From a virus: a DNA stretch of 45,108 nt. The DNA lies in the IMG/VR virus record IMGVR_UViG_3300028829_006345, positions 1 through 45,108 of that record. The stretch is one strand, 5' to 3'. Numbering within the stretch: the first letter of the stretch is position 1; every line of letters starts with the position of its first letter. Shown here one piece after another: positions 17,101-36,872 of the stretch. The notes under the pieces are model-generated. The model searched no databases. It saw only the letters and a program-made list of their open reading frames with translations, and had not been told where the DNA came from. A program made the translations under genes and the position numbers.

Positions 17101-20100
17101 GATTATCCCAAGACATTTTCAATGAAAGAAACTTAGGATAAAGACCAATATCCTGTTCAGTTGTCAAAGTTGATACTGGTTTCATTGATGCACTTTGATC
17201 ACCAAGGTCAAGCATCGTATATTGTATTAACTCAGTATTTTGCTTTTCTTGAATTTCTCCATTTGCAGTATTTGCTTTTTCAAAATAAGGACTATCGGGT
17301 AGAAATCCACCAATGGTACCATGATAATCAATATTAACTTTTGTGTCATAAATTAAAGGTGTTTCAGTTACAACAGGTTTATTTGTAATAGCAATCGCTT
17401 GTTGTGCAAACGTTCTTGTACCGAATACTTTAAATCGTGAAGCAGTATCAGAAAATTCTGCGGCTTTTGATTTATCAAAAGTTATAGTGTCCCAAAATCC
17501 TTGATTTCGGTCAAATACAGGTCCGTCAAGATTTAATATTTTTGCTGAATTAATTCGTGTTTCTTCAAACCATGTATTTGATATTCCGAGTATGGCACTA
17601 TTCGATTCAATATTATACTGAAATTGATTGATATTGATTTTGATACCACTTTCTAAATGATCATAATTCCATAAGGTTGGTGATTCTGCTGGTATATCAA
17701 TTTTAGGCAGCATTTCTCGATCACGAATTTCGAGTGCAATTTGTAATGCATTCAATTCAGATTCACCAACTCTCATTTTATCAGAAACTGCTATACCTTC
17801 TTTATAATCTGCAAATTGTAAACAATAAACATATCCTGTATATTCAACTAAAAATTTATGACAATTTGTTACAGGTACATAATCTGTAATTGAATTGCCC
17901 GTACCAGTAACAGATAAAGGATCAACAATTCCAAAACTATGATTAACAAATCTAGGTAAATTTATTCTCTCTGCTTTCCATAATTCAGCTTTAATTTTAG
18001 GCTGTTCACGGTCATCAAATAAGACTAGGTTTTGTCTTGGTGTTACATGAAATGATATACGATTATAATCCGTAATTCGATACATGTATCCAGTATATTC
18101 TTGACGAATTATATCTGTTGGATGTAACCAAACTGTCTCACCTCGGTCATTAATTGTGGCGACTATATCACTTTGTCGAATATATTGTATTTGAACAAAG
18201 CCACGATTCCGTGTAAGTACTTCTGTTGTAGGTAAATAAGAACCACGATATTCAATTGTATTGCCAGATATCGTAGGTGTATAAGCATTTGCTGGTGCAT
18301 TTGAAAAATTTCTTGCGTTGTGATCGTGCCAATCAGCAGTACAACGATTCGGCCCACCACCATCATCTGAAAAATCTGGTTCCGCAGGATCAATTCCTAA
18401 TGCTGCAGCATTAAAAGCACTCTTATCTAAATCCCAAAGCCAAAATGGATTTTCTGTAAAGTTTACAGGATAGGCATCATAGAATCGATTTTCATGACTG
18501 TTTCGTGAATGTTCTGTATCCATGAAAACATTTGAACCTTCGCCCATCGAATCTCGTATGAGTATTCTTTTACCTGGATTATTACCAACGGTTCGGTCAA
18601 TAATTTCTTCAACAGTGGCAACATGATTATTAATTTGCTTATCTCTTCGATCTGCAATTTTACCACCATATGCCTCAATTATATCTGTTTTCCAATTAGC
18701 TTGATCTTCAACGTTAATTAATTTTACAAATGATTCAACTGCTACATGACCATCATAATGAAATTGTTCTTGAATTAATTTTTGATATTCTTTTGTTGTT
18801 CCATATCCTACTAATTTGCATCCACCAGTACCATCAAATCTACCATAAGGTGGACTTGTTTCAATTGAATCAAAAGTAATTTCATAATCAGATTGACTTG
18901 CACTTGTATTACCATTATCAAATGATAATGAAGAACCTTCACATTTACGAAACTCTGTAAACGTGCTACTTGCTGGACGAATTAAAACATCCTCAACATA
19001 AAATTTAAATGCTTCAAACGCATCAACAAAAGCAGTTTCTTCGAATCTCGGGAAAACTTCTGTTTCTTTAATTGTACCATCAACCTTTGCATCAACTTCA
19101 ACTCGAGTGTAGAAATCTCTTTCTTCATTCGATTCCAATTCCATTTTCTTATGTGTGATTTGAATTCTCTGAATTGCTTCATGTGTATCAATCATACATT
19201 TTGCAGTCTCTGTATAGATTTCAATTTTTGGAAATGCAGTAACTTTCATATGTTGTTGCAATTCCCAATCCATACGATTTCGAACAAATGCAATAAAGCC
19301 AGCAGGATGCAAATCATCAAACAAATTCATATCAATATCTTCAGGTTTTAAGCTAGTGATGATTTCATATGAATATGTTTGATAATAATAATTATCTTGA
19401 ATATGTTTTTCAGAAGACAGATTACTATTATTTTCATGAAAGAATGGTATTGGATCGAATAGAATTGTTTCTTCAAGTTCAATCCCAGCAGAAAGTCCAT
19501 GTATGATATTTGGATTATCATAATCACGAAGTTCTGGTTTGTCTAAGAATTTAACTTGATCGTCTAAATCAGCTAATAGACCGGCTTGTGTTGATTGTAC
19601 TCTCGCAACACCATATCCAAGTTCAGGTTCAATATGTGAAACGTTTGCGAGTCCTTCCCATGAATTAAGTGCCTTAACTGGTAATGTTAATAATTCATTT
19701 TTGTTATAAGTATCAAACAAGATATCAGATAACGTTAGTGTATTACCTGTCGGATAGAATTCGACATTTGCAGATGCAATTTGATTGTTTGCTTGTAGCC
19801 AACGAGGTGCAATAAAACGATGAACATGGAAATCTTCTGTCAGCATATTTGTGTTTGACAAAAAGATTCCATTACTGATTGATTTGATGCCTTGAAAATA
19901 AGCTGGCTCACCGTCAATTAAAACAAATGTATTTGCATCCAGCGAATATGTATTTGGATGCTGTAAGTCAAATGTTAGATCATAATACTGAGTAATGTGT
20001 GCAATTTTATTTGTATTAATTACTTTGGCAGAGGGTGCAAATTTATAATCAAGTCCAGATTTATTGATTTGAAGTTTATCAATTGCACCAAGTTCTTGCC

Positions 20101-21322: not shown

Positions 21323-23163
21323 AAGGATTTAAACATCCCATTTTTTGTAAGAGTCTGCTCGTTTTTTACACGATTTACAAACGCTTCTGGTATTATTGTT
21401 ATATCTTCTTCAAGTACAGCCAGTATTTGTTCTTTTGAAGGTGTTATAATAAATGTATCGGGGACAACATTTACAATTAATTCTGTTTTACCACCAGAAA
21501 GATATGGCAAAAATGTTTCAAGTTTAAATTCACCAGTTTCATAATCAATTGTTGCAACATCTTTTTTGATTACTAGCGTTTCAGTTTTATTTGCAATTGA
21601 AATATCAGTCACAACGGAAATTTTCCCATCATAATTTAAATTTTCTTTTAAATAACAATTTCGTATATAATTATTATTTGAATCTAGATAATCAAAATGA
21701 GTTGCATCAAGTGTTCCTCTCTTAATTTTATTGTTAAAACTTATTGAATAAAAACTAGGAACACCAACATCAAGTGAAATAATTTGATATAATTTTATTT
21801 CAACATTTGTTGCAATATAATTTTCATCTTGTTTATCAATTAAACGAGAAATATCTGAAATGTGAAATTGTTTTTCAAACTTTAATAAATTGTTTTTTAG
21901 ATAATCTCTTAATACAATTTTAGTATCATTTATAATTGAACCTTCGGTTGAAGTTATTTCGTCTGAATTATAAATGATGTTACAATCTAATTTTAGAAAT
22001 GTGTATACAGGATCAAGAATTTTTGGTGTGATTGTTATAACACTTAAATCTTTAAGTTTATTGTATACTTCAGTCCTTTGTGTACCTGTAAGAGCAACTT
22101 GATTCTTAGGTTTTACGGCGCAGAAAATTGTACCGTACACTGGAGGATTGTTATCCTCTCCACCCCAAACTGAAATCGTGTCGATGTAACTGAAGTATTT
22201 TAACAAAGCAATTTCATAATCCTTAACAGTTACAAGTCGGTTCTGACTCATGAATGATTTTCTGGCACTCAAACGAATTGTTTCAATATCTTCTTCATTT
22301 TGTCCAGAACCGGAAGGATCAATAGTTCTTATGATATGGTTTGTAGGAATAGCTTTACGATCACGAAATGAAAATTGAACACATCCGTTTCCTTCCGTGC
22401 CTTTTGTCACCAAGTAATGTAATTCAATACAATTATTATTCTTAACCGCTCTACCTAAAATACCATCTCCAAATACTAATTCATATCTACCTTCATAATT
22501 TTGTTCAATAAAATATAATTTTGAATCTTTACTTGCAAGTGTTATATCTTCCGCTTGAAAAAATCTTTCTTTTTCTTGTGATTCACGAAACGGTTTCACA
22601 TAAACTTCAAGAGTTTCAAGGTCAATATCTCTGCTTGGTATTTCATATCTTTTTTCAAGCATAAGTTTATTAACTACAATTTCTTCTCTTTGATAAGAAC
22701 CCTGCTTTAAAGTAAGTGGCTCTTCAAAGTTTCTCAACTTCGAAACATTTACTCTCTGAGTTACAACGAAGGGAAATGTATCTTCATTAATATTTTTACC
22801 AATAATTTCTGTATATCTTTCAACAGGATATGGTCCTTTAAAATTTTCAGTACCTGTTAGACGAAGTAATATCTTGGCAGAAGAACATTTTTTTGAACGA
22901 GGTGTGTAGCCCATTTGCTTTGCAATTGATACAACATTCTTTCTTTTCTGTGCTGTATCTAAGTACATTTCACTTGAGATTTGATTCAAGTAAAAGGCAT
23001 TGTATTGTGTATTATAAGCTAGAAGGTCAACAACAAAATTTAAACCTGAGGCTTCAAAATCATAATTCGCAAATTCAGAATTATTTTGTACATAACTAAG
23101 CAAGTTTTTTCGTATCTCATTAAAATCTAATTCACTTATATGTTCTTTAGGTATTTTAGACAT
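21319..23163 (-). CDS. baseplate wedge protein, T4 gp6 family
   Basis: The product is 614 residues, close to T4 gp6 (660). The N-terminal block F-A-N-Y-D-F-E-A-S-G-L-N-F-V-V-D-L-L-A-Y (residues 31-50), followed by NTQYNAFYLNQ, is the family hallmark and parallels LDYDFEGSRLNVLCDLLAYNT in T4. A second conserved part near residue 300 contains FMSQNRLVTVKDYE. gp6 forms the ring dimer that joins baseplate wedges. It lies between gp25 (3-base gap) and the giant gp7-position gene (ATGA overlap), matching the T4-like order. It is intact and likely functional. Confidence 0.92.
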   Translation of the reverse strand: MSKIPKEHISELDFNEIRKNLLSYVQNNSEFANYDFEASGLNFVVDLLAYNTQYNAFYLNQISSEMYLDTAQKRKNVVSIAKQMGYTPRSKKCSSAKILLRLTGTENFKGPYPVERYTEIIGKNINEDTFPFVVTQRVNVSKLRNFEEPLTLKQGSYQREEIVVNKLMLEKRYEIPSRDIDLETLEVYVKPFRESQEKERFFQAEDITLASKDSKLYFIEQNYEGRYELVFGDGILGRAVKNNNCIELHYLVTKGTEGNGCVQFSFRDRKAIPTNHIIRTIDPSGSGQNEEDIETIRLSARKSFMSQNRLVTVKDYEIALLKYFSYIDTISVWGGEDNNPPVYGTIFCAVKPKNQVALTGTQRTEVYNKLKDLSVITITPKILDPVYTFLKLDCNIIYNSDEITSTEGSIINDTKIVLRDYLKNNLLKFEKQFHISDISRLIDKQDENYIATNVEIKLYQIISLDVGVPSFYSISFNNKIKRGTLDATHFDYLDSNNNYIRNCYLKENLNYDGKISVVTDISIANKTETLVIKKDVATIDYETGEFKLETFLPYLSGGKTELIVNVVPDTFIITPSKEQILAVLEEDITIIPEAFVNRVKNEQTLTKNGMFKSL

Positions 23164-23166
23164 TGA

Positions 23167-23544
23167 CTAGCGAATTTGTTTGACGGTTTTTTCAAACGTA
23201 ATTTCATTTGAAGGTTCCGTGTTTATGTAAAATGTAATTTTTAATTCAAGATTATATAAATCATTCCAAATGTCAATATTTTTTACTGTGATTCGATCTT
23301 CATAATTTTTAATTTGATCTTTGATATCAGTTTTTAATGAATCAAGGCCAATAAAATCATTTTGTTCAAACAATTGATTTTGAATACCAATTCCAAAGTC
23401 AGGTTTATAAAGACGTTCTCCTGGACGTGTGTATAGAATATGATTTAGTGAACGAAAAATAGCGGCTTTACCTACAACATGATTTACACGCATTGTGCTT
23501 GGGTGTGGTATAAACTTTAAATCTAAATCTATGTATTTTGACAT
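23167..23544 (-). CDS. baseplate wedge protein, T4 gp25 / GpW-like family
   Basis: The product is 125 residues (T4 gp25 is 132). The block R40-P-G-E-R-L-Y-K-P-D-F-G51, followed by LFEQ, is the central signature of gp25/gpW baseplate proteins, whose fold resembles lysozyme-inhibitor-like domains and which contact the sheath initiator. The ATG at 23544 follows the preceding stop by seven bases. It is immediately upstream of gp6, the usual neighbour. No unusual feature. Confidence 0.94.
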   Translation of the reverse strand: MSKYIDLDLKFIPHPSTMRVNHVVGKAAIFRSLNHILYTRPGERLYKPDFGIGIQNQLFEQNDFIGLDSLKTDIKDQIKNYEDRITVKNIDIWNDLYNLELKITFYINTEPSNEITFEKTVKQIR

Positions 23545-23551
23545 TTATTAT

Positions 23552-26500
23552 TTATGCTATTCTGTAGAACTTAATTGTTGCGTCAATTAACTCAAACTTC
23601 GGAAAGCTATTTAATTTTTGGTCTTCATCATATCCAATCAAGATATAAGGCAAAAATGCCGTAATGTCCTGTTTCACATAAATTTCTGCAGAAAATGTTT
23701 TTCGAAACATTCGCCCAAATCGAAATAATGTGTTGCCATCACTGTTTCTTTCATAACCTTTTCGATGTGTATGTAAAAATTGATCACCAGTTGCAGATTG
23801 TGAAGCAAATGGAAATCCACCAAGATATACTTGCACTTTTTCGATTTCATTACTTGATCCACAACCAGCAGAGCCAAGTCCTGTATCCAAGGTTAGTTCA
23901 TATAGATATTTATAGTTTGTATTTAAAGCTTTATCCGTACCTAATGATATGGGACTTCCATCCATTTCTGTTAAGAACGCACCAGCAAGATATCTCATTC
24001 GTAAACTTTCAGTAACTTTAATCCAACTATTACCATGTGAGTATCCAACTTCACTTTTAATTGTTCCATCAAGAATAGGTTTGAGTGTAAAATTAAACTC
24101 GGATGTTGAAAACAATGGATTAAATTTCACCTTCATACTTTTTGGTTGTGGTGTATAACCAGCAGCAGGGTTTCTTGCTATACTATTTTTTGTTAACAAA
24201 CCTACTAGATCATTTGGTGTTTTATTTGGCATTAAACTTATGATAGCTGATTCGTCAAGACCATCCAGTATAAATGGATTTGGACTACCATGAACATTCG
24301 CTTTTAATTGATTACCAACAATGCCCAAATCTTGTTGTACCAAGCCAAGTTTTTCTGCAAGATAGCGAATAGGATAGAAAGGCATTCCTTGTGGTAAATA
24401 ACTTAGTAGCACTAACGAGAAGCCAAATTCATTTGTTAAATTTGATTCAGCTTTTTCTAATTCTTTCCATATTTTACTTTCCCATGTGGCGAGTTTGATT
24501 TCTCTTTCTCTTCTTTCTTCATCTTCCTTTGATTCAACACTCGATTCCTTTTCAGTAGTATCACTGGTAAGTCGAGCATAAACTGAAGTGCTGAGATCGA
24601 ATAGCGATAAAACATTATCTTTTTTCTTTCCTAGTTCAAGTTGTATGCTATGCCTTAACTGTTGAGATTTTTGATACATTGCTGCTGAAACAGGGTATGA
24701 TTCTTGCACCACACTTTTGTTTGTGATAAAATCTTTTCGAAATGTATCATCTGCCGAATCGGTTTTTGTAAACAACGTATCAATTTCATCAGCAATATCA
24801 GCCGCACGTTGACGGTCAATCGAACGAATCTTTGTGAGATAACTCTGGACACTTGCTAATCGACTTGGCTTAAAATTACGTTTTGTTGTTTGCCTTGGTA
24901 ATTTAGTTGTATCAGTAAGTAAGACAGACATTTGATCATAATCTCGTTCACGAACATATTTTGCCTGAACTTTACCGGCGAGTTGAATACTTAATAATAA
25001 CTGTATGATTTGAATTAGGTCTTTAAGTACTTTAATTAAATCTAAAATTCGTTTTTTAACGTCTTTGAGAAAGTCAATAATAGCATCAAATGCTGTTGTG
25101 TTTGGTTCAAATAGATTTTGAAATCCAAGAATTTCATTTTGTAATCGTTTAATATCAGCGGTGAGTCCAATTATATCTGAGAAGTTTGCTTTGACCCAAG
25201 TACCAACACCTGCGTCTGTAAAATGTTCGGTAACTTCGGCTACAATAATACCTGCGCCACGATAATTCCAACCTGCACCAGTTTTTTCTCTTATCTGCAC
25301 ATACTGTCCAGCATGAAAGCTATCAATTTTTGTTGAGAATGATTCTTTACTTGAATCAACTTCAATGATAAAATCATACAAATAATCAACATCTGCAATA
25401 GTATTAAAGTTATAGAATTTTTCCATATAACTTTCATACAATGAAGTACGTCCACTATTTGCATAAAAATTACCAAGGTATGTTAATTGTGCAGACTTAT
25501 CAAGTTTACTCTCATCATAAGGTATGGCTGTTTCTGTATTGATGCCTTCAATATATTTTATTTGGTCTTTTTTGCTTTTAATAATTCTTTCAATACGATC
25601 TGTTAATTCAGTATTCAAATACTCTTGTGTATTTTTTGTTACCTCTTTTTTAATTTCTTGCTCTTCAATAAGTTTATCGTTCAATCTCTGTATGCGATCT
25701 GCCTGAGACATACTTGATGAAGTATATGTTAATAAAGTCTCATCTTTTACATTTGTCCCTATTTTAAATAATCGAGCTTGAGACCGCATCATATTATCAA
25801 GAGCGTTTGCTTTTACCATTGCTGACTTATCAAGAGAATTTTGATAAGCAGTATATGCAGAATAATAAGTTTCTCGTTCTGTTTGAAAAGCGGCGGCTTG
25901 TGGATACTCACTTATGTTATTTAATTGAGTAAAATGCTTTTCGTTTGTTTTAAGCTTTGTATAGAATCCTTCGTAATCATATTGATCTGTTCCATCTAAT
26001 GATGCCCGAACATATTCTTTATAATCATAATATTGTACTTCATCTTCAATTAAAAGAATCTCTTCTTTTAATGTTTGAAACTGTGAATTTGTTTTTAAAC
26101 GAAATTCAACTAGAGAATCAAGACCTTGTTCATCAAGTTGTTCTTTATACAACTTGTCATACATTAATTGTTTTTCAAACGCAGCCTTGATACGGTTCTT
26201 TCGATCAGTTGTCATTGCAGAGATTGGATCTGATTCAAAAATTCTCCAATCTTTAAGTTTAGGATCATTATAATTTCTTCGCATTGTTTCCATGTCAATG
26301 CGCTTTAGATCATCTTTAGCATTTGAAGTAACTGATTTGTCTAAACCAAGAATTTTATCAACACATAGAATTCGAACTCGCTTTCTTTTAGGTCGGAATA
26401 ATGAATCGTATTCTTTTAACAAGCCTTCAATGGTAGGAAACTTAAATAAATCAGCAATTTTTGCAACTGCTTCAATAAAATTTTCAACTGATGCCCCGCT

Positions 26501-27184
26501 TTGCTGATAGCCGATTGAAAAATACAAATAAATTGCATCATAAAAACCACCTGGTATTGATAGATTTTTCGCAGACTTTTTAAAGTCCATGAAATCTCTC
26601 TCAAAATAAGCCATCTTCTCACTGCTTACCATACCATTGAATGATGAGTTTTCATTTTCAAAATAGTATTTTAATTTGTTCTTTACTTTTTCACCATCAT
26701 CAATTACTCTTTCGGCGAGATTCTTTTCAAAAGGAAGGTAGTATGGAATGTTAGGATCTGAAACATCATAGAATTTTTTGTATGCATTATCTGCTTGCTC
26801 TTTCAAACTTGTTGTTGGAAGGCCTTTAAAGCTTGTATCAGCAAGGTTTGGTGGTACTACTAATGCATATACTCCTAGTCGTAAAAAAGAGTCAAGAGCA
26901 TTGTATAGAATGCCAGCCAAGTATGTGACTACAGCATTCATAAAATTGGGCAAGAAAAATAGAAAATCTCGATATAATGAAACGGCTGTGATTGCGAAAT
27001 CAAAAACAAACACTACATTATTTTCAATAAGCTTAATATTTTCAAGAAGGTATTTTGAATCATCAAGACTAATACCTACGAAATTATCTCCTAGTACGAT
27101 AGTTTGCCACTCTGAATCAACTTTAGTAGCATCTTTATCCGCAAGAGTGTTTCCAAATTCAGTTAGTTGTCTACCGATACTCAT
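23552..27184 (-). CDS. large predicted virion protein, 1210 residues, unknown function
   Basis: No family recognised. Residues about 53-115 are strongly hydrophobic (FVFDFAITAV, then FLFFLPNFMNAVVTYLAGIL), enough for two or three membrane-inserting helices. Residues about 330-560 and 680-960 are rich in charged heptads (long coiled coils), with a second hydrophobic patch near 655-735. The last 180 residues are beta-rich, ending FELIDATIKFYRIA. It lies between a 59-residue gene (ATGA overlap) and gp25, inside the tail operon, so a baseplate or tail-tip component is likely. The hydrophobic N-terminus could serve membrane insertion or tape-measure-like packing, but this is inference. It is not a standard T4 gene. 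Confidence 0.7.
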   Translation of the reverse strand: MSIGRQLTEFGNTLADKDATKVDSEWQTIVLGDNFVGISLDDSKYLLENIKLIENNVVFVFDFAITAVSLYRDFLFFLPNFMNAVVTYLAGILYNALDSFLRLGVYALVVPPNLADTSFKGLPTTSLKEQADNAYKKFYDVSDPNIPYYLPFEKNLAERVIDDGEKVKNKLKYYFENENSSFNGMVSSEKMAYFERDFMDFKKSAKNLSIPGGFYDAIYLYFSIGYQQSGASVENFIEAVAKIADLFKFPTIEGLLKEYDSLFRPKRKRVRILCVDKILGLDKSVTSNAKDDLKRIDMETMRRNYNDPKLKDWRIFESDPISAMTTDRKNRIKAAFEKQLMYDKLYKEQLDEQGLDSLVEFRLKTNSQFQTLKEEILLIEDEVQYYDYKEYVRASLDGTDQYDYEGFYTKLKTNEKHFTQLNNISEYPQAAAFQTERETYYSAYTAYQNSLDKSAMVKANALDNMMRSQARLFKIGTNVKDETLLTYTSSSMSQADRIQRLNDKLIEEQEIKKEVTKNTQEYLNTELTDRIERIIKSKKDQIKYIEGINTETAIPYDESKLDKSAQLTYLGNFYANSGRTSLYESYMEKFYNFNTIADVDYLYDFIIEVDSSKESFSTKIDSFHAGQYVQIREKTGAGWNYRGAGIIVAEVTEHFTDAGVGTWVKANFSDIIGLTADIKRLQNEILGFQNLFEPNTTAFDAIIDFLKDVKKRILDLIKVLKDLIQIIQLLLSIQLAGKVQAKYVRERDYDQMSVLLTDTTKLPRQTTKRNFKPSRLASVQSYLTKIRSIDRQRAADIADEIDTLFTKTDSADDTFRKDFITNKSVVQESYPVSAAMYQKSQQLRHSIQLELGKKKDNVLSLFDLSTSVYARLTSDTTEKESSVESKEDEERREREIKLATWESKIWKELEKAESNLTNEFGFSLVLLSYLPQGMPFYPIRYLAEKLGLVQQDLGIVGNQLKANVHGSPNPFILDGLDESAIISLMPNKTPNDLVGLLTKNSIARNPAAGYTPQPKSMKVKFNPLFSTSEFNFTLKPILDGTIKSEVGYSHGNSWIKVTESLRMRYLAGAFLTEMDGSPISLGTDKALNTNYKYLYELTLDTGLGSAGCGSSNEIEKVQVYLGGFPFASQSATGDQFLHTHRKGYERNSDGNTLFRFGRMFRKTFSAEIYVKQDITAFLPYILIGYDEDQKLNSFPKFELIDATIKFYRIA

Positions 27185-27360
27185 TTAGAACTTCCTTGTT
27201 TAAGAAGTAGGTCTTCAAATTTTTCAACTTGTCTTACAACATTCTCAAGACTTGACTTTACACGTTCAAAATCTGCCAGTTGTCTTTGTAAACGATCAAT
27301 ATCAGTCTCCTCATCCGTTTGTGAGGTAGTTGTATTCTTCGGTGTCGCATTCTCTTCCAT
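27181..27360 (-). CDS. 59-residue coiled-coil protein, hidden overlapping gene
   Basis: The frame runs from ATG at 27360 to TGA at 27181-27183. The start has AGGA about ten bases upstream, and the stop overlaps the next start as ATGA (27184). Residues 1-18 are polar and acidic. Residues 20-55 form a heptad helix (IDRLQRQLADFERVKSSLEN and on). Its first 50 bases overlap the end of the 697-residue gene in another frame. The tight coupling to the next gene and the amphipathic helix support a real gene. It may be a small adaptor or chaperone for the 1210-residue protein (inference). Confidence 0.6.
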   Translation of the reverse strand: MEENATPKNTTTSQTDEETDIDRLQRQLADFERVKSSLENVVRQVEKFEDLLLKQGSSK

Positions 27361-29404
27361 ACTTATCTGTTCCTACAATATGATATTTTTGATAATTTGC
27401 ACCACAACCGGCTGCTTTTCTGTAATCGTCAATTTGCTCATCAACATGTTTCTCATATTCATACAATGCACGAACAGAACTTCTTGTTCGGTCCGCAATA
27501 CCATTTGGCTCAAGATACCAACAAATGTACTGTGCAAGTTTTACTGCTAATCCTTGTGGACTTCCAGTTGATAATGCTTTGTAGTGTGTATTTGCTGATT
27601 GAGTCCACTTATCAACATCTGCTCCATTTGCATCAACCAACCCTTTCATTAATGAAAATGAACCCATGATGTTATCAATCTCGCCAAAACTGCTACCTGA
27701 AATTCCATATTTTCCAAGTGCGCTTGAGTAATCACCAGGAAGACCAGAAGCAGGACTAGCTGGCAACGAAGCACAATCGAGGTACTGTTTTAAATGGCCT
27801 GTATTTTTAGCTGAGTGGTCTCCCCAGCCATTTTCAATTTTACTATTCCATTTGCTGAGATTCGTTGGGAATAATACATCTGCCAAACATTCTTTTTGTC
27901 TTTCTTTCGGACTATTTGGTGTATCTTCAGTGAAACCACCAGATGTTTTAGTATGATAACTTAGTGGAATTCCCTTAGGCTGCATTTGTTTTGACAATTG
28001 ATCATAAAATACACCGATGTTTGTTTCATACAACAATGCAAATAATGATGGTGTAAAATATTTATACTTTTTTAGAAGAGGATGTTCAATTTGTATTCGG
28101 TCATTATAAGTTCCATTTTCAATAACTTCATTCTTAAAGTACGGCTCTTTCCAATTGAACTCGTTAGCATAGGCAAATAATGGATTTTTAGTAATATTTG
28201 GATAATAAAACTGAGTAAAATTAAATTCTTTTTTATCAATATTTGCAATTGATGTTGTATCGTTTGGATGCCAATTTCTCATTACAGGATGGTGCATAAA
28301 TTCATCACCATCAATTGAACAAAATTGTTTACCAACAACTGATATTTTTATTCTTGATTCTGAAGAATATATGTCATCTTTACCAAAAAGAGTTCGAAAT
28401 ACTTCGTTGATAACATCGAGAATTGGATTGAGCGCCCAACAGACAGGTATTGTAACAGTAGCACATGGTCCACCAATACAAATTTTTAGACTGGGATTTG
28501 AGCATTTTATATCTATAAAATCATATTTACCAGCTCGAGTACCATGAATCGTATTAATACGAATTGTTTCATCATAAGGTCTTCTTGGTATAAATGCCAT
28601 GGATACATCAACTGATGTGCCACCATTACCTTGATGATGATAACCAGTAGAATAATGTTGGTTGTAAAAATTTTTGTGTGAAGATTGCTTTTTAGTATAA
28701 GGAGATGCCTCAGGACTGTTCATATGTCTAGCGACTGGAGTTGCAGTTGTCGGTGATTGGTCTGCCTTTGAACCTATCCAAACTTGTGTGTATGAACCTG
28801 TAGGTTCATTTATACCACCAGTAACACCACCGGGAACTCTTTGATTGTGATGTCTTTCAAATATTTGAAGTGTTACACCAGTTTGAAATCCATTTTTAAC
28901 ATCTCCCCAATCACCTTCCCACTCCATATCATGTTGCGAGAAGTCAACTGTACGATAAATGCGGCTACCACTTGAGGCATTCCTTTTACAAGCCATGTGA
29001 TTATTATAATATCCTACATCCATAATAACTTCACCACATTCTTGATAATCCATTGCCATAGCGAGAGGACCTGGATTGCTAAACTCTTCTCGGTCTAATG
29101 CTCGAGTCAGATCATTATTATATGGATCCTGACCAAGTCCAACACCTTTATGTTTTTTAAGTGTTTTCTTGTCTGTATAGTCTCCACTTTTTAATGCTGG
29201 ATCAGGTGCTAGCCATGGACCTAGATAGTCGTAGAAATTTTTTGAAGGTACTTTCATTGCATCGCCAGAATATTGTGCATCTGGATTCCAATCTTTATTA
29301 ATAATTACCTCAGGACAAACAACTGTTGCAGTACCTACAACACGGTCATATATACCTTTGATTTTTTTAAATAAACTTCCACCTGTAAATAAATTGACTG
29401 CCAT
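27311..29404 (-). CDS. large predicted virion protein, 697 residues, unknown function
   Basis: No family recognised. The product is rich in Gly, Asn, Tyr, Trp and His and has many Cys residues (a cluster near 305-320: C-x-N-P-S-L-K-I-C-I-G-G-P-C). The N-terminus begins GGSLFKKIKGIYDRVVG. The middle is beta-rich and the C-terminal 150 residues contain several helices. It starts at 29404 with AAGGA in good spacing and follows the 428-residue gene after nine bases. Position inside the tail operon implies a virion protein. The Cys/His content might bind metal, but no known metal motif is complete. Confidence 0.72.
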   Translation of the reverse strand: MAVNLFTGGSLFKKIKGIYDRVVGTATVVCPEVIINKDWNPDAQYSGDAMKVPSKNFYDYLGPWLAPDPALKSGDYTDKKTLKKHKGVGLGQDPYNNDLTRALDREEFSNPGPLAMAMDYQECGEVIMDVGYYNNHMACKRNASSGSRIYRTVDFSQHDMEWEGDWGDVKNGFQTGVTLQIFERHHNQRVPGGVTGGINEPTGSYTQVWIGSKADQSPTTATPVARHMNSPEASPYTKKQSSHKNFYNQHYSTGYHHQGNGGTSVDVSMAFIPRRPYDETIRINTIHGTRAGKYDFIDIKCSNPSLKICIGGPCATVTIPVCWALNPILDVINEVFRTLFGKDDIYSSESRIKISVVGKQFCSIDGDEFMHHPVMRNWHPNDTTSIANIDKKEFNFTQFYYPNITKNPLFAYANEFNWKEPYFKNEVIENGTYNDRIQIEHPLLKKYKYFTPSLFALLYETNIGVFYDQLSKQMQPKGIPLSYHTKTSGGFTEDTPNSPKERQKECLADVLFPTNLSKWNSKIENGWGDHSAKNTGHLKQYLDCASLPASPASGLPGDYSSALGKYGISGSSFGEIDNIMGSFSLMKGLVDANGADVDKWTQSANTHYKALSTGSPQGLAVKLAQYICWYLEPNGIADRTRSSVRALYEYEKHVDEQIDDYRKAAGCGANYQKYHIVGTDKYGRECDTEEYNYLTNG

Positions 29405-29413
29405 ACTATTTCC

Positions 29414-30700
29414 TTAATAAGTTCTCGACATTGTTTTATTTGTACCGCCTGATGAAGTATCTCCACTAATTGTCGATGGTACTTGTGTTGCCGTTGGTTG
29501 ACCCGCAGGTTTTAAACCTGTTACACTACCGGCAGATCCCAATGAACTACAAAATCCGAATGATAGCCCATCAAATACACCTGCTGCATTTTGATTTGCA
29601 TGGCCTTGAAAAATAATTTTATCATTTTCAACTGTAAATATTTTTTTAAGTAATGCATCATTTTTTAAATATTTCCAACCAAGACCATCCTTTTCCCATA
29701 GACTAAGTATATGCTCAAAGTAATCATCTCTTCTTGGATGAATGCTTGCAGAACCTGAACCTCTCCCTCTTCTTGCATAATCATTTTCACTATCATCTGG
29801 CCAGTACCAAGGATCATTCATACAGTCATAGCTTGAAAGTCCTTGGTCTGTCCATTTTGTACCTCGTTTTGCTTGAAACCAATTCCACTGATAGTCAAAC
29901 ATATCTTTTGTATCAGGTGATCTTGCCATAAGTTGTTTCCAAGACATGTCTGTTCCACCGTTTTTAAAGCTCCACCATAAAGCAGTCCAACTATTTGTAC
30001 CATTTTGATAACGATCAAATACACCAGAGTACCGACCCAACCAAACTTTTCCTCTTGCTGTATGTAATGTTCGTGAATTAAATTTTTGTGTATCACACAT
30101 TGTTTTAAACTCAAGCAACATGTGTAACCCTCGCAAGGTAAACTTTGAATCTAATTTTTTCAAACTATATTCAACATCTTTATTTGTAAATATTTGCCGA
30201 TATTCCTGATTTGTAGTTTTGAATATAATAGGTGGTGGAGGTGGTGGATCATGAGGTTTACCCTGTAGATACAGATCTATACTTTTGACTAATTTCAATT
30301 CATTGGTATAAAATACTTTACAACCGTATGCTTGTGACCATCCAGTGATCATATAATACTTAAAATCTTTGAGCATTTTATCTTCATGTAAAATGCCTTT
30401 CCATAAACTACTTGAGTCACTTTTTACTTGACCAAATGGTTGTTTTAATTTTACATCTGCCCAAAGTATTCCTGGTACTATCGATCCAACACCTTTGTTT
30501 GTAATCTCTAACACATCGGGATTCGGTGCTGTGGGCCAATCAGTCATACCTTTTGTCTCATCATATGCACCACATGGACCAGCTGGTGGAGGAGGAGGTG
30601 GTTTTGGTTGGATTTTAACACCACCCAAACTTAAACCTCCTTTAAAAAATCCTTTAGGTATTTTTGGTAAACCACTTATTATACCTTTTGGAATAAGCAT
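29414..30700 (-). CDS. predicted virion protein with two polyproline stretches, 428 residues
   Basis: The protein has no recognised domain. Two six-proline runs occur, at residues 34-39 and about 152-157. The first separates a Gly/Lys-rich N-terminal tail from the body; the second lies between beta-rich regions. Trp and Tyr are abundant in the middle (about 225-330). The C-terminus is Ser/Thr/Gly-rich and probably flexible. The ATG at 30700 has AGGA nine bases before it and follows the stop of the 1184-residue gene after four bases. A short VPGILWAD block resembles IPGLIWAC in the 162-residue protein upstream, hinting at a shared small module. A tail-tip or baseplate accessory role is inferred from position. 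Confidence 0.7.
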   Translation of the reverse strand: MLIPKGIISGLPKIPKGFFKGGLSLGGVKIQPKPPPPPPAGPCGAYDETKGMTDWPTAPNPDVLEITNKGVGSIVPGILWADVKLKQPFGQVKSDSSSLWKGILHEDKMLKDFKYYMITGWSQAYGCKVFYTNELKLVKSIDLYLQGKPHDPPPPPPIIFKTTNQEYRQIFTNKDVEYSLKKLDSKFTLRGLHMLLEFKTMCDTQKFNSRTLHTARGKVWLGRYSGVFDRYQNGTNSWTALWWSFKNGGTDMSWKQLMARSPDTKDMFDYQWNWFQAKRGTKWTDQGLSSYDCMNDPWYWPDDSENDYARRGRGSGSASIHPRRDDYFEHILSLWEKDGLGWKYLKNDALLKKIFTVENDKIIFQGHANQNAAGVFDGLSFGFCSSLGSAGSVTGLKPAGQPTATQVPSTISGDTSSGGTNKTMSRTY

Positions 30701-30704
30701 AGAA

Positions 30705-33700
30705 TTATCCTAAGTAATAGACTTCTTGATTTACAGGATTGGTATCTACAACTTCAAATTCAACTACTCTTAATGGAAACACATCAAGTAATTTAGGTGG
30801 AGCAGTAACAGAATCTTTAATACTGAATATATATGTACCGTCCGATGTTGATGATGATGGATTTAATTGAACTTTATTGCCTGACATAGTTATATTGAAT
30901 GCAGTCATACCTAATTTATAGGAAGCTTTAAATGCATCCATTTTATAATTAAATTTCAATTTATTTGAATTAGTACCTTTTGAACATAAATTAAATGTGC
31001 GAGTTGGATTATAAGAAGTATATTCATTTTCACTATCAGCAGTTACAGTACCATCCATAAAAACAGCATTGTAATACTTAGCCCAGAACTCAAGAACACC
31101 ACCATTTGTTGCTGTTAGATAGAATGTTGAATCTTTATCGTATGCATGGAAAAATTTATCTGCATTTGATGCACAAGAAGGACCTTTTTTCAATACTTTA
31201 AATCGATGAGGATTGACTATATCTGCAACTTCAATCAACATACCACAATCAGCATAGTCTACCGTTTGCATTCCAGACGATGTGAAGTGTGGATCATTGT
31301 GACGAACAAACTTACCATATGGTTCATCTGTAAAGAAATCGGGTGTATACTTTACTTTTTGAATTGTTAAGCGGTCACCTTGTGCAAAGCCATGCGAAAT
31401 AGGATGATTATCTTTCATGGTTTCAAGGATGATATAACGGTCATCACCATTTGAGAAATAAAGTTCTCCTTTTTCTTCTTCATCCATTCGTAGATCATAT
31501 TGATTTGGAAAAATTACTTTTCCGAATTGAAATGGTAAATCAAACTTACCTTGATAAACATGATTAAAGAACTTACCATGTAATGCAGACTTTACTGATT
31601 CAACACCTTGAACACTGGTGCTGGCAAAACCACCATCAGTATTGATTTCTGAATACTTATATAATATTGCGGCTGCTGTGGCTGCTTTCGGTAAGTAAAA
31701 ATTCTTACTATTATCTGTAGCAGAACCATCAGATAAAAATTGAGCATAACCTTTTTCAGCAAAACCAGAGTTTAATAAATCTGGAGAATTTGATGTTGAG
31801 CGTATATTAAATCCAACACGAAATAGCTTACCTTCATAATTTGTAGCCATACCAAAGTTCGGTGTTAATGTAATCTCAGTATCACTAATGATATTGTTTA
31901 CTTCGTAATATGATCTATATGGTAGAATCATTGCTTGAGAATATTCATTTTGTGCCATTGCTCTTGTAATTTTTGATGCTCTTACAAGAGTTGAACTTGT
32001 TACGCCTGACCCAATATCACCACCATCAACACGATACACACTTCTTAATTGATTATTATAGATATTTCGAAAACGATATTCAACACCACCGATTGAAATC
32101 AAATCTCCAGTTTCAAAATAATTTTGTACTTCAGAGCCAGCCGAACCAGTAGGTGCTGATAGATCGATTGATCCACCCGGTTCAAATACTACATATCCAA
32201 GTTTCAAGTTATTTGCCATTGGATATAAACTTACTCTTGTTGAAACTTGTGCAAATGTTTTTGATGATGCTGAATTGTAGATACCTGGTCTAAATTCTTC
32301 CTGCAATCTGTTCACTTGATACACATTATCATACTCGAAAGAATAGCCTTTATATGTTAATGTCCCACCGGCACCTTGTCCAATAACTTGATATTGTACA
32401 TTACCAAAAACAATGTGCATGTTTGGTTTATATGATTTTTGGAAATAGCTACCTTTATAATGAATATATCCATGACCAATTGAATAGAACACACCAGGAA
32501 TGATCATTTCATCAAACTGCAACTCAACAACATCGCCAGAATTTAATTCTTGAGTATACTTACTACCAAAACCTACAATTGGGTCACGTTGTAAGATAGC
32601 AGCACCGGAATATTGACCGCCCGGTAATTGAGTTTCACTGATAAAATCACCATCAACCAATCTGATTGGAAATTCAAGAGTATTTGGTTTGTCTTCATCT
32701 GGATCAAGATCACCAGGTGGTCTATATTCATCATCTCCATCAGCAGGATCACCATCTCCATCCAAGACGCCTGAACCAGGATCAAGCTCATCATCTTCTG
32801 GTTTATCTGGATCAGGACTATCTTCAGGTGGCACACCAGGACCTTCAGGATCTATTCCTGTAGGTGGTTCAGGTACAGGCATTCCTGTATCATCATCAGC
32901 ATCATCGGGATTTTCAAATTCAAAATCCCAAATATTGTTAGCAGGATTTGTATCAAGATTTACAGGATCAACAAGAATTGAATCACCATCACCCATATCC
33001 CAAGGATCACCTTCGATATCAATTTTAGTTCCACCATCACCACCGCCACGGTCTGATAGTGTAACTACAACTTCATCACCAGCAGAAATTTTTACAATAC
33101 CTGAAAGCTCAAATCGGTTAGCTAAGATAACCTTTTCACCTTCAATTGGACTACCATCCATGATCATTCGTAATGGTTTTGGTTCAGGGTTAACTTCTTT
33201 TGAATATGGGAAACCTTTGTTTGGTCCAGTGTATGGTGCTGGATTATCACCAATCGGCACCAACATGTTTAAGTCTGGTGGATTTGTAGCTTGACTTGAA
33301 ATATCAATTGTAGTAATACAATTATCAGGATCTGGTATATTATACAAAAAATCACAATTCATATCTGGCAGCCAAGGTAAGAAAGGATTTACACTTGGAC
33401 CTTCAGGACGATATTTTGGTATGAATGCTGTAAGTGGAAGTGTTTGCGCATCAACTGTTGTAATATCTTCTCCATCAACCATTAAGAATGGTACACCATC
33501 AACACGAATTGCTTGTAGTAAAATAGTATTTCTTGTACCAAAAAAGAAAGCTTTATCTGCAAAAGAACCACCATTTGGTGATGGTGCTGATTGATCTTGA
33601 AATGGTAGTGCGCCATTTAAATTAAATCGATAGAGATACTTATCAATATCCTCTTCTGAATTAACACCATAAGATAGACCTCTTAGATATGCTCTTTTGA

Positions 33701-34259
33701 TGCCAAGTCCAGTACATACTTGTACAATCTCTGCAATCTCCTCAAAGGCATATCGTTTCATATCTTGGATCATATCATTACAATTATTAATGATTGTTGC
33801 TCTCATTTGCTGAAGACCAACAGGTACTCTTTTAAATGTCATTGATAATGATTTGCGCAAGCTCATACATGCAATGTTAGAATCTCCGCCACCTGATCCG
33901 ACTGTTGAGCCACCACCTGTTCCACCACCAACACCGCCAGTATTACCACCAGTATTACCACCTCCACCGCTGTTACTTGCGGTATAACCAGGACATTCTG
34001 TATATTTTACTGCATAACGTTTAATTGGCCCATTTGACCACATTTCGTGGTGACGTTCTGCATTATATTTTGCATAGTTACCATGACCATTTGCAAAACA
34101 TCCATAATTTGGAAGAACGGCATGAGCGCCAGCAGGTATCCCTATATCAAATACTATAGCATTTTGACGATACATCTTGACACGCATATTGGTCCAGTCT
34201 TCTTCCCAATATGTTTTAGTTCCAGAACTTTCAGGTGAATAAGTAACAACGTTTAACAT
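30705..34259 (-). CDS. multidomain predicted virion protein with Gly-rich and Asp/Pro-rich linkers, 1184 residues
   Basis: Three globular parts are separated by low-complexity linkers. Residues 1-95 form a small Trp/Tyr-rich N-terminal domain. A Gly/Ser/Thr linker spans residues 97-125. Residues about 130-420 form a mixed domain (LRKSLSMTFKRVPVGLQQMR onward). Residues about 423-525 are an extremely acidic Asp/Pro/Gly linker with repeated DPD, DGDGD and PEDD patterns that could bind calcium. The C-terminal 650 residues are beta-rich. No enzyme motif was seen. The start at 34259 has GAG upstream. A long, flexible, extended architecture suits a host-contacting or baseplate-peripheral protein. 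The family is unknown. The 201-residue frame on the opposite strand of the linker is an artefact of its composition. Confidence 0.72.
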   Translation of the reverse strand: MLNVVTYSPESSGTKTYWEEDWTNMRVKMYRQNAIVFDIGIPAGAHAVLPNYGCFANGHGNYAKYNAERHHEMWSNGPIKRYAVKYTECPGYTASNSGGGGNTGGNTGGVGGGTGGGSTVGSGGGDSNIACMSLRKSLSMTFKRVPVGLQQMRATIINNCNDMIQDMKRYAFEEIAEIVQVCTGLGIKRAYLRGLSYGVNSEEDIDKYLYRFNLNGALPFQDQSAPSPNGGSFADKAFFFGTRNTILLQAIRVDGVPFLMVDGEDITTVDAQTLPLTAFIPKYRPEGPSVNPFLPWLPDMNCDFLYNIPDPDNCITTIDISSQATNPPDLNMLVPIGDNPAPYTGPNKGFPYSKEVNPEPKPLRMIMDGSPIEGEKVILANRFELSGIVKISAGDEVVVTLSDRGGGDGGTKIDIEGDPWDMGDGDSILVDPVNLDTNPANNIWDFEFENPDDADDDTGMPVPEPPTGIDPEGPGVPPEDSPDPDKPEDDELDPGSGVLDGDGDPADGDDEYRPPGDLDPDEDKPNTLEFPIRLVDGDFISETQLPGGQYSGAAILQRDPIVGFGSKYTQELNSGDVVELQFDEMIIPGVFYSIGHGYIHYKGSYFQKSYKPNMHIVFGNVQYQVIGQGAGGTLTYKGYSFEYDNVYQVNRLQEEFRPGIYNSASSKTFAQVSTRVSLYPMANNLKLGYVVFEPGGSIDLSAPTGSAGSEVQNYFETGDLISIGGVEYRFRNIYNNQLRSVYRVDGGDIGSGVTSSTLVRASKITRAMAQNEYSQAMILPYRSYYEVNNIISDTEITLTPNFGMATNYEGKLFRVGFNIRSTSNSPDLLNSGFAEKGYAQFLSDGSATDNSKNFYLPKAATAAAILYKYSEINTDGGFASTSVQGVESVKSALHGKFFNHVYQGKFDLPFQFGKVIFPNQYDLRMDEEEKGELYFSNGDDRYIILETMKDNHPISHGFAQGDRLTIQKVKYTPDFFTDEPYGKFVRHNDPHFTSSGMQTVDYADCGMLIEVADIVNPHRFKVLKKGPSCASNADKFFHAYDKDSTFYLTATNGGVLEFWAKYYNAVFMDGTVTADSENEYTSYNPTRTFNLCSKGTNSNKLKFNYKMDAFKASYKLGMTAFNITMSGNKVQLNPSSSTSDGTYIFSIKDSVTAPPKLLDVFPLRVVEFEVVDTNPVNQEVYYLG

Positions 34260-34269
34260 ATCAATGTTC

Positions 34270-34758
34270 TCATATAAAAGGACCCGTTATTGGTTTCGGT
34301 GGAAAACTATTATCTAATACAGTAATCAGTACTGTTCTCATTGATGAATGTATTGCTTGTGCCATTTCGACTGCTGCAATTTCAGGTAAAGGGTTTATTC
34401 GTGAAAATATTGGTCCGAGTTTTGCTGGTAATTGTCCCGGTATATAATCAAGTCGTAATTGACCATGTGTATAAATTGTTCGTATTGAAACTTCAATTGC
34501 AACTCCAACTTTTACACCAAACTCCCATGGTGAAAATGCATACGATTTTTGAGCAACTAATAACAATGCAAATGGTGGCATCCAAAATTGAAAGGTATAT
34601 GGCTGTAACATCAGTTTACGAATGTTTTCACCACCATTTATGTAAGTACAAAGTGCAGCATTTACATTTGATGCCCATTGGAATCCAGGAAAGATCGGAT
34701 CCATTGTTTTACATGCCCAAATCAAACCGGGTATTAATGTACCTAAATCTAAAGACAT
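34270..34758 (-). CDS. small hydrophobic predicted virion protein, 162 residues
   Basis: The ATG at 34758 is chosen. It lies two bases after the stop of the gp5-like gene and gives MSLDLGTLIPGLIWACKT. A longer TTG reading (34785) would overlap that gene by 25 bases. No clear ribosome-binding site precedes either start, so coupling to the upstream gene is likely. The protein is rich in Ile, Leu, Pro, Phe and Trp, with a hydrophobic FQFWMPPFALLLVA segment around residues 55-68, but no clear signal peptide. No family recognised. Placement directly after gp5 suggests a hub or spike-tip accessory. Confidence 0.68.
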   Translation of the reverse strand: MSLDLGTLIPGLIWACKTMDPIFPGFQWASNVNAALCTYINGGENIRKLMLQPYTFQFWMPPFALLLVAQKSYAFSPWEFGVKVGVAIEVSIRTIYTHGQLRLDYIPGQLPAKLGPIFSRINPLPEIAAVEMAQAIHSSMRTVLITVLDNSFPPKPITGPFI

Positions 34759-34760
34759 AA

Positions 34761-36872
34761 TTAAAATACAAAAGTTTTTTGACAAAATGATTTCATCACA
34801 CCCATCACAATTGACGGATCTCCTGAAGTTGATACAGTACTTGTTGGTCCAAGAGGTGTTAAATGAAAATGATTTAAAAACATTTTCATGAATTCATCAC
34901 CTCGTATTGCAGGTGAATGTGCAGTATAGTCACCTAAAGCTAATCTACCATCAGGTTGTCTTGGTGTTCCAACATGAAATGATCCGGAGAATTGAGCATG
35001 TAGATCAATATGTGTCGCCGCTTTGATAAACACCTCAAGTCCAGAATAAATTTGTGTACCGATAAAGGAGTTAGTATACAAACCCATACCGGCTTTAATA
35101 TATGTATTTAATCTGGAACTCGATAAAATATGAGTAGATGTTGAAGTTGTTTGAATATACCCACCTTGAGTTTCAACTGTTCCAACTGGTGTAGCTTTAA
35201 GTTTGATGCTATTAAATGTTTGAGTTTCAAGAACTATGTTACCAAGTTTTGAGACAAAATAAATGTATCCTGTTTGTGTTTGTCCCACCAAACTTGATGG
35301 ATGAGACATGTGAGTTTCCCACTCAGGTGCAGGCTGTTGCTGAAATATTGAAGCAATTGATGTACGAAGTGGTGAAGTGACTGTGAACGAACCTTTATCT
35401 CCCATGATGCCAAGAAGACCACCAGTTGATGAACGTGATGAAATTCGTGTATCACCATCCTGTGCATTCAATTCAATATGACCATGTCTCGCAACTTGTG
35501 AAAATGCAACTGGCTCTGGAGCATAAAAAGGTAGCATAGCAAATGTATTTTCTGCAGTCATATTAATTGTATGTCCTGCACTACATGTCCAATTATCACC
35601 AGCAGCCATATTTGTATTCATTGCCGATGTAAGCTTTACGGAACCTCCACTTATATTGTATATACCTCTTGCGTCACCAGTATAATCATTTTGAATTCGA
35701 TGTAAATGATTACCAACATTTGTTTCAATTAAAGGAGCGGTCTGAATGATTTCATTAACACTACGATGTTGAATTGATGAACCAAGCATGTCAATTTTAC
35801 CAGTTTGTACTTTCACATTATAATCACCATCTTCAACAGTTAAATTATGGTTACTACTACCACAAACTTTAACTTCAAAGTTTTCACCTGCTAAACGAGC
35901 AGAATTGATCATTAATGCTAAACCACGGCGATGTGTTGAATACTTTGCTCCTTTTGTATATTCATAGCTATGTGCTTCCGTGAAATCATATTTGTCAGAC
36001 ATGTTTTGTTTGACAACTGTACCATCGGGATGTATTTCACGAAATGTACCCGAACGATGATATTCATGAATTCTTTCTGCATTTGGTGTATCATCATATT
36101 CAATTATGTGTCCTGATTCTGTTTGCAATACATGATTAAAAGGATATACTGCATTATAAGGTGGCTGTGGTTGGTCGTATTTAAAACTTGGTACAGATGT
36201 TTGAATGTTTCGATTAACATTCAATGTTTTTGAAAGTAGCGGTTCTTTAAATGCAGAATTTGTTTGCTCATACGTTGATGTTTCAGAAACTTCAGAATCA
36301 TATCGTATTGTTAAGTCATTGATACCTCTTGCAAGTTTTGGTGTTGTTGCTGAATCTTCTTCACCAATTCTTGGATATCTTGAAATAAATTCATCTTCTT
36401 CTACGTCTACGCCAAGCTCATCTCCTCGCCGGCGTCTTACATTAACGGGTGGTTGAGGAAATGCTCTTCTCTGTAGATTTGAGCCTTCACGAACATCTTT
36501 AAAGCCAAAGTCTGCCCAGTTTGAATCATCTGAAGGATTTAATTTTTCTGGCTTTCTTGCATAGCCACCAAGTGAACCGATCACTAATGGCTGTTGTGCT
36601 TCCTCACCATCAAGAAAAAAGCCAACTACCCACGAACCATCAACAAGACCATTTGGTGAATGCCCAACATCAGTCTGTGCGGCAGATGTCACAGGTTGCA
36701 TTACCATAGCCCAAGGTAAAGTATCTGTTGGAACATCATCACGGCTCTCCGAATGAAAGCCAAAACAACGAACACGAACACGTCCAAGAAAATTTGGGTC
36801 CATGCGGTCTTCTACCACACCGACAAACCAAATCATATTTTTTCCAAATGATAACGAATTCGTTTCAAACAT
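34761..36872 (-). CDS. baseplate hub/spike protein, T4 gp5-like (OB-fold and beta-helix, no lysozyme)
   Basis: The 703-residue protein begins with the gp5/VgrG OB-fold: FVGVVEDRMDPNFLGRVRVR (residues 16-35), then LPWAMVMQP, a GHSPNGLVDGSWVVGFFLDG stretch and QQPLVIGSLGG (to about 103). Residues about 245-300 carry the HVLQTESGHIIEYDDTPNAE block typical of spike proteins, and the rest is a long repetitive beta-structure suited to a trimeric needle. T4 gp5 has a lysozyme domain between these parts; none is visible here (no T4-lysozyme-like catalytic E/D/T arrangement). It follows the gp27-like hub gene after one base, with AGGAT before its ATG. It forms the central membrane-piercing spike. Confidence 0.88.
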   Translation of the reverse strand: MFETNSLSFGKNMIWFVGVVEDRMDPNFLGRVRVRCFGFHSESRDDVPTDTLPWAMVMQPVTSAAQTDVGHSPNGLVDGSWVVGFFLDGEEAQQPLVIGSLGGYARKPEKLNPSDDSNWADFGFKDVREGSNLQRRAFPQPPVNVRRRRGDELGVDVEEDEFISRYPRIGEEDSATTPKLARGINDLTIRYDSEVSETSTYEQTNSAFKEPLLSKTLNVNRNIQTSVPSFKYDQPQPPYNAVYPFNHVLQTESGHIIEYDDTPNAERIHEYHRSGTFREIHPDGTVVKQNMSDKYDFTEAHSYEYTKGAKYSTHRRGLALMINSARLAGENFEVKVCGSSNHNLTVEDGDYNVKVQTGKIDMLGSSIQHRSVNEIIQTAPLIETNVGNHLHRIQNDYTGDARGIYNISGGSVKLTSAMNTNMAAGDNWTCSAGHTINMTAENTFAMLPFYAPEPVAFSQVARHGHIELNAQDGDTRISSRSSTGGLLGIMGDKGSFTVTSPLRTSIASIFQQQPAPEWETHMSHPSSLVGQTQTGYIYFVSKLGNIVLETQTFNSIKLKATPVGTVETQGGYIQTTSTSTHILSSSRLNTYIKAGMGLYTNSFIGTQIYSGLEVFIKAATHIDLHAQFSGSFHVGTPRQPDGRLALGDYTAHSPAIRGDEFMKMFLNHFHLTPLGPTSTVSTSGDPSIVMGVMKSFCQKTFVF

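Follow-up and report, generated by a model that had tools for sequence, protein, structure and literature searches.

The virus record IMGVR_UViG_3300028829_006345 (45,108 bases; the whole of it, positions 1 to 45,108, is called the window here) carries a T4-type baseplate operon on its minus strand, in which homologues of gp5, gp25, gp6, gp53 and gp8 occur together and an 11 kb cassette of six genes is placed between gp5 and gp25. The cassette genes are named here by the lengths of their products in residues. Five of them, c162, c1184, c697, c59 and c1210, constitute a fixed, lineage-specific module of one clade; the sixth, c428, lies outside the conserved core. We lean, with restrained confidence, towards a lineage-specific baseplate or tail-tip module that would form an extra layer round a lengthened gp5 spike and include a swappable host-contact part. 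An elaborate tail-tip or baseplate extension had been suggested in a preliminary description, made from the letters of the sequence alone. It stands as the best reading in view of the gene order kept in seven lineages and of the accompanying changes in gp5, VrlC and PAAR, although the extension itself is something we infer, two of the sequence features listed with it proved weak and c428 is not part of the core.

A gene module conserved in seven lineages

To follow the cassette in other viruses, sequences of the cassette, gp6 and gp5 were used as queries in scans of 2.9 million viral contigs. The carriers belong to seven distinct lineages, namely the window with its near-identical contigs, L007 (three near-identical contigs), L008, L027, L118, L119 (with L121) and L120. 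In all of them the order is gp5, c162, c1184, a variable slot, c697, c1210, gp25 and gp6. An open reading frame (ORF) of 47-59 residues, c59 or its counterpart, was also found in 7/7 lineages, overlapping the end of c697 and reaching or just passing the start of c1210. Comparison of this slot in related phages, which the preliminary description had proposed as a check, thus revealed a conserved module. As order and sequence are kept in other contigs, and c59 is conserved as well, the long ORFs are not a product of chance.

Between the window and the four distant lineages, identity was 53-60% for gp5, 40-46% for c1184, 33-37% for c697, 28-34% for c1210 and 27-30% for c162. In 21 genome pairs, cassette protein identities correlated with those of gp5 (r = 0.96 for c1184, 0.97 for c1210, 0.88 for c697 and 0.78 for c162), as is expected of genes that are inherited together. 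In a gp6 tree of 23 rows (25 were sought and two without a usable gp6 were dropped), the seven carriers were all on one side of a single branch with a support of 100/100, a result that comes with a long-branch warning. For c59, a profile built from the four distant lineages recovered the L007 copy (E 1.6e-5), that of L008 weakly (0.019) and the window copy only at E 1.2, so that the case for this small gene rests on its position and alignment.

Changes in gp5, VrlC and PAAR that accompany the module

The length of gp5 was compared among the best 80 of at least 550 gp5 loci, 6 with cassette genes and 74 without them; among the latter, 59 extend for 1000 bases or more beyond gp5, and gp25 is present on the same strand in 20. 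The protein has 697-703 residues in 6/6 carriers, compared to 298-499 residues in the 73 non-carriers, out of 74, whose ORF was read, a few of these ORFs being possibly cut by contig ends. The copy in the window (34761..36872, minus strand; PHROG E 2e-71; Pfam Gp5_OB E 4e-15) is a hub spike protein of this long type and lacks the lysozyme insert of T4. When a gp5 profile of the seven carriers was compared with T4 gp5, it matched only at 6-112 and 374-462, skipping the lysozyme, and the second match is followed by about 380 residues in the carriers and by about 113 in T4. None of the 8 carrier records gave a Phage_lysozyme match above the cut-off. Therefore, the carriers depart from the T4-type gp5, in which a lysozyme domain lies between the OB domain and the beta-helix. 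The added length would most naturally be read as a longer spike.

VrlC (phrog_358) was detected in 9 of 13 non-carrier records, compared to 0/8 carrier records. It is present in all four complete named genomes (HTVC008M, phiN3, DSL-LC02 and ACG-2014f), and an excerpt of PMC7029224 counts it among five proteins common to all 35 genomes of that study. The region behind gp8 is where VrlC is located in HTVC008M and phiN3; gp8 is present in 7/8 carriers, and at least 7.8 kb behind it are covered in 6 of these.

A similar distribution was observed for PAAR (phrog_281), with matches in 6/13 non-carriers and 0/8 carrier records, and Pfam PF05488 did not detect it in the 7 carrier records tested. In five of the six phages with a match (HTVC008M, G008, G010, G011 and G014), PAAR occupies the gp5-gp25 slot just before gp25; in phiN3 it is found elsewhere. 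The HTVC008M gene (NC_020484.1, 30815-31114) is annotated as hypothetical protein I899_gp052 and matches phrog_281 at E 2e-14. The largest carrier record, of 146.5 kb, holds T4-type replication genes.

A variable slot and variable parts of c1184

The slot between c1184 and c697 is occupied in the window group by c428 (29414..30700, minus strand), at 48-59% identity to the window copy. In the other lineages it holds v547, v664, v501 or v670, which were linked to each other by hhalign at probabilities of 88-100% for 5/6 pairs, the v547-v670 pair falling below the hhalign threshold of 20%. No profile link between c428 and any of these four was found by hhalign. The slot proteins outside the window group appear to be a fast-evolving family unrelated to c428. 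An extra gene of 285-286 residues is also present in the slot of L118 (11861-12721) and L119 (12547-13404), with a weak match to RXYLT1_C, an exostosin GT47 glycosyltransferase family; as the best E-value of 7e-5 lies below the Pfam cut-off and belongs to the 285-residue gene of L119, this match was set aside as no property of the core.

Variation was also detected within c1184, where the N-terminal part ranges from 5 to 504 residues and the centre from 26 to 137 residues, and where L120 carries an internal insert. A 70-residue stretch of this insert (gene at L120 7483-10959) resembles the N-terminal domain of the L118 protein (gene at L118 8523-11864) with 36% identity and a pairwise E of 8e-7; it scored 32.7 bits, compared to a maximum of 21.2 in 200 shuffles, and reached E 0.003 in a larger ORF set. 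One small domain thus apparently occurs at two places of c1184, at the N-terminus in L118 and within the core in L120, which points to possible domain shuffling. Exchangeable parts on a constant frame would be typical of devices that make contact with the host.

The six cassette genes

All six minus-strand ORFs of the preliminary description (162, 1184, 428, 697, 59 and 1210 residues) were confirmed between gp5 and gp25. The first after gp5 is c162 (34270..34758), a small conserved family without a family match that is in place in the seven lineages. An alternative TTG start at 34785 would give 171 residues, and the ATG at 34758 aligns with the starts in L027, L118, L119 and L120. It is followed by the large conserved protein c1184 (30705..34259), with two core parts (residues 130-432 and 550-1172) and a variable N-terminus and centre. 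The glycine-rich linker noted earlier is present at residues 98-125 (33885..33968, minus strand), and the Asp/Pro-rich linker lies in the variable centre, at about residues 433-549 (32613..32963, minus strand), a part that is reduced to 26-50 residues in the distant lineages. Segment-against-segment comparison of c1184 for internal repeats gave only the overlaps designed into the segments. One motif, regarded as typical for beta domains of phages, is present only in c1184 and its relatives. The polyproline runs were also verified, as two hexaproline stretches (PPPPPP) at residues 34-39 and 152-157 of c428.

The other three genes belong to the core. The Cys/His richness attributed to the cassette was only mild, as c697 (27311..29404, minus strand) has 13 Cys and 21 His in 697 residues and a single Cys is invariant in the seven relatives. 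The product of c59 (27181..27360, minus strand), whose gene bridges the end of c697 and the beginning of c1210 and overlaps both, is a small probable coiled-coil protein. The largest core gene, c1210 (23552..27184, minus strand), encodes a protein with a conserved hydrophobic stretch near the N-terminus and long predicted helices in its middle. The hydrophobic N-terminus was weak when a 19-residue Kyte-Doolittle mean of 1.6 was used as threshold; c162 stayed under it (maximum 1.06), and c1210 barely passed it, at 75-93 and 713-731.

The preliminary statement that these genes resemble no T4 tail protein was borne out, as no credible PHROG or Pfam match, to a tail family or to any other, was obtained for c162, c1184, c428, c697, c59 or c1210. 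The relatives tested from L027, L118, L119 and L120 and all 7 members of c697 likewise gave none with PHROG or Pfam. Weak matches were set aside for c59 (Pfam coiled-coil entries, and a PHROG entry at E 0.0016), c428 (Ig_TR130_2nd at E 0.077 and a terminase at E 0.25) and c1184 (a virion structural protein at E 0.28). Searching 50,697 phage records by tblastn with c1210, c697, c1184 and c428 yielded nothing at E 0.01, and no match in the phage collection was obtained with c697 and c1184 of L118, the N-terminus of c1184 of L119 or v664. Sequence searches of the PDB with four core profiles returned chance rows only, a single scan of bacterial genomes with c697 gave no relative, and the literature search, a weak negative based on partial texts, revealed no paper evidently describing this module.

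Genomic setting of the cassette

As assigned by PHROG and Pfam, the operon contains two tube-cap-like proteins, gp53, the hub protein (phrog_350), gp5, the cassette, gp25, gp6, a gp7-like protein and gp8. All the genes that follow the cassette in it are on the minus strand, with the wedge proteins gp25 (23167..23544; PHROG E 1e-29; Pfam GPW_gp25 E 3e-14) and gp6 (21319..23163; PHROG E 1.7e-135) at its flank, and then a giant gp7-like wedge protein of 3391 residues (11147..21322; phrog_17744 E 3e-32; Pfam Baseplate_wedge). The latter has about 2580-2690 residues in the other carriers and about 1000 in HTVC008M and phiN3. The wedge protein gp8 (8555..11113) is followed by VrlC in relatives, but not here. 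The nearest named relatives are remote: gp6 shares about 30% identity with cyanophages, and gp5 about 27-34% with HTVC008M, Sinorhizobium phages and others.

Another part of the window, 4952-7249, holds tail-fibre-like genes with PHROG matches. Near a tail-fibre-like gene, the plus strand encodes at 1815-3947 a 710-residue protein with a class III nucleotide cyclase domain (Pfam Guanylate_cyc E 2.7e-21) and several hydrophobic segments; a relative near the baseplate genes of L033 additionally has a CHASE2 domain, and no phage paper on such a cyclase was found in the literature search. A homing endonuclease (43751-44431, plus strand; phrog_314, E 1e-37) was also detected near a helicase gene (41346-43211).

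Weighing of the proposed role and of its alternatives

A role in the baseplate or tail tip is suggested by more than position alone, because the order is kept in seven lineages, divergence proceeds in step with gp5, gp5 is longer, and VrlC and PAAR are missing from the records. Several results weigh against it. No profile link to any of the baseplate proteins tested was obtained for the cassette, and the T4-type late promoter octamer was not enriched (3 in the window compared to 5.75 expected). Since shared ancestry alone can yield correlations as high as those with gp5, they demonstrate co-inheritance and not contact. The VrlC and PAAR negatives hold for the records, which are fragments or of unknown completeness, and not for whole genomes; the PAAR result is the weaker of the two, as two cyanophages likewise gave no PAAR match.

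Structure prediction with fold search, recommended in the preliminary description, was run for c1210 and c1184 and is also on the unfavourable side, as the models were poor: c1210, modelled without its first 10 residues from a 7-row alignment, had a mean predicted local distance difference test score (pLDDT) of 55.9 and a predicted template modelling score (pTM) of 0.31, and c1184 had a mean pLDDT of 38.8 and a pTM of 0.24. Foldseek gave nothing convincing for either model. The best row for c1184, a riboflavin synthase at E 1e-3, was rejected, and so were the three rows below 0.001 for c1210, a whole-length iridovirus match with a root-mean-square deviation (rmsd) of 52 and two unnamed proteins. 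By VIA-align, only a small barrel was recognised in c1184, at residues 671-764 with a Z of about 6. The only hint came from the C-terminus of c1210 (residues 1010-1210; 23555..24157, minus strand), modelled at low confidence, for which Z reached 8.0 with an rmsd of 3.6 over 143 residues of the last 200. Its top 50 VIA-align rows (Z 6.4-8.0) were mostly carbohydrate-binding modules (CBMs) and lectins, although best hits with a Z of 7-8 often turn up where no true relative exists. The C-terminus of c1210 may resemble a carbohydrate-binding beta jelly roll such as those of CBM4, CBM22, CBM27 or CBM35.

Three other explanations were considered. In the first, the cassette would be an accessory, moron-like island occupying a plastic site of the baseplate operon, with proteins that function inside the infected cell instead of in the virion. 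The same interval contains about 20 accessory genes in HTVC008M, and according to excerpts of two papers cyanophages have hot-spots near gp5 as well as between gp46 and gp25 (PMC3037559), and some of them have a plastic region that splits the baseplate module (PMC7029224), all of which also tells against a role in the tail. The content of such an island would, however, shift among close relatives, whereas the five genes keep their order and overlap in seven lineages. The proteins are also very large, and profile searches, which the preliminary description had named as a possible source of refutation, matched no metabolic, regulatory or takeover family. We therefore regard this explanation as rather improbable. 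A receptor-binding locus, that is, a tail fibre or adhesin moved into the baseplate operon without an added layer, would fit the variable slot gene, the gain and loss of domains in c1184 and the CBM-like hint in c1210, but only one slot is hypervariable, with the c1184 core, c697 and c1210 as conserved frames, and the tail-fibre-like genes with PHROG matches are elsewhere in the window. As it would also leave the longer gp5 and the missing VrlC unexplained, we consider such a locus unlikely.

Least probable of the three, and in our view very unlikely, is a role of c1210 and its partners in penetration, in which they would be ejected or inserted in the membrane and form an envelope channel in place of the missing gp5 lysozyme. 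The absence of that lysozyme, the peptidase in the same slot of phiN3 and the hydrophobic N-terminal stretch of c1210, which has many invariant positions in the seven relatives and exceeds the hydropathy threshold slightly at two sites, would agree with such a function. Nevertheless, the hydropathy is marginal (1.66 at most in the window), not all relatives pass the threshold at both sites, and no pore or lytic family was matched.

Discussion

Under the favoured reading, a baseplate or tail-tip module, the products of c162, c1184, c697, c59 and c1210 would be virion proteins that surround the lengthened gp5 spike, and extend below it, as an extra layer or sleeve. Small coiled-coil chaperones serve the assembly of tail fibres, and c59 could be a small coiled-coil assembly partner of this kind. 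The exposed part in contact with the host would consist of the c428 slot and of the variable domains of c1184, and the layer would probably take on the outer-baseplate function of VrlC in related marine phages. When the tail meets a host, binding of these adhesive parts to surface glycans or other receptors would send a signal to the gp25-gp6-gp7-gp8 wedges and lead to contraction of the sheath.

More tentatively, and as a proposal that we regard as less likely than not, the clade may have rebuilt the distal half of the T4-type baseplate, dropping VrlC, the PAAR tip and the gp5 lysozyme, lengthening the spike and the gp7-like protein, and replacing what was lost by a layer of families unseen elsewhere, with an exchangeable host-contact protein. 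The textbook example of a contractile injection device is the T4-type baseplate, the core of which is generally taken to be conserved. If the proposal is true, it shows how far the distal part can be replaced at the site that meets the host while the wedge ring stays, and makes these uncultured phages a source of candidate new adhesion domains.

Regarding known systems, strong structural matches and a binding assay support a carbohydrate-binding jelly roll on a baseplate protein of the Bacillus phages Deep-Blue and Vp4. These phages are unrelated to the carriers, which share the possibility of such a domain through the weak match of the poor c1210 model. In the excerpts of PMC11406892, myophage baseplate proteins are described with carbohydrate-binding modules, one of which bound host cells. 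The double-layered baseplates with VrlC or A511 Gp106-type proteins are alike in the proposed role, an outer layer that meets the host; as far as excerpts of PMC7029224 and PMC11406892 describe them, they have carbohydrate-binding modules and a small partner gene. No sequence or profile link to VrlC was found, with hhalign below 20% for each cassette family, and nothing credible was obtained when the c59 profile was compared with the small partner gene of VrlC.

In relatives, the stretch from gp5 to gp25 is plastic; several contigs have small genes there, and in L067 it is empty. Among its tenants are those of L101 (3570-3968) and L087 (12648-13004), which resemble, by eye, a thermonuclease and a SET-domain protein, respectively. 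In HTVC008M and four contigs, the gene just before gp25 in this stretch encodes a T4 gp5.4-like PAAR spike-tip protein, which PHROG 281 did not detect in any of the 8 carrier records. In the Sinorhizobium phage phiN3, another T4-like phage, one larger gene is placed in exactly this slot, but it encodes a single protein with an M15-type peptidase domain that has no similarity to the cassette proteins.

The core order gp53, hub protein, gp5, slot, gp25, gp6, gp7-like protein and gp8 is common to the Kyanoviridae cyanophages, the Pelagibacter phage HTVC008M and the carriers. The marine myoviruses have VrlC behind gp8, a short gp5 (350 residues in HTVC008M) and accessory genes or PAAR in the slot, whereas the carriers have the cassette and a gp5 of about 700 residues, VrlC and PAAR being undetected. 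What is new here is a slot with one conserved, structural-looking module instead of shifting accessory genes, together with the changes in gp5, VrlC and PAAR.

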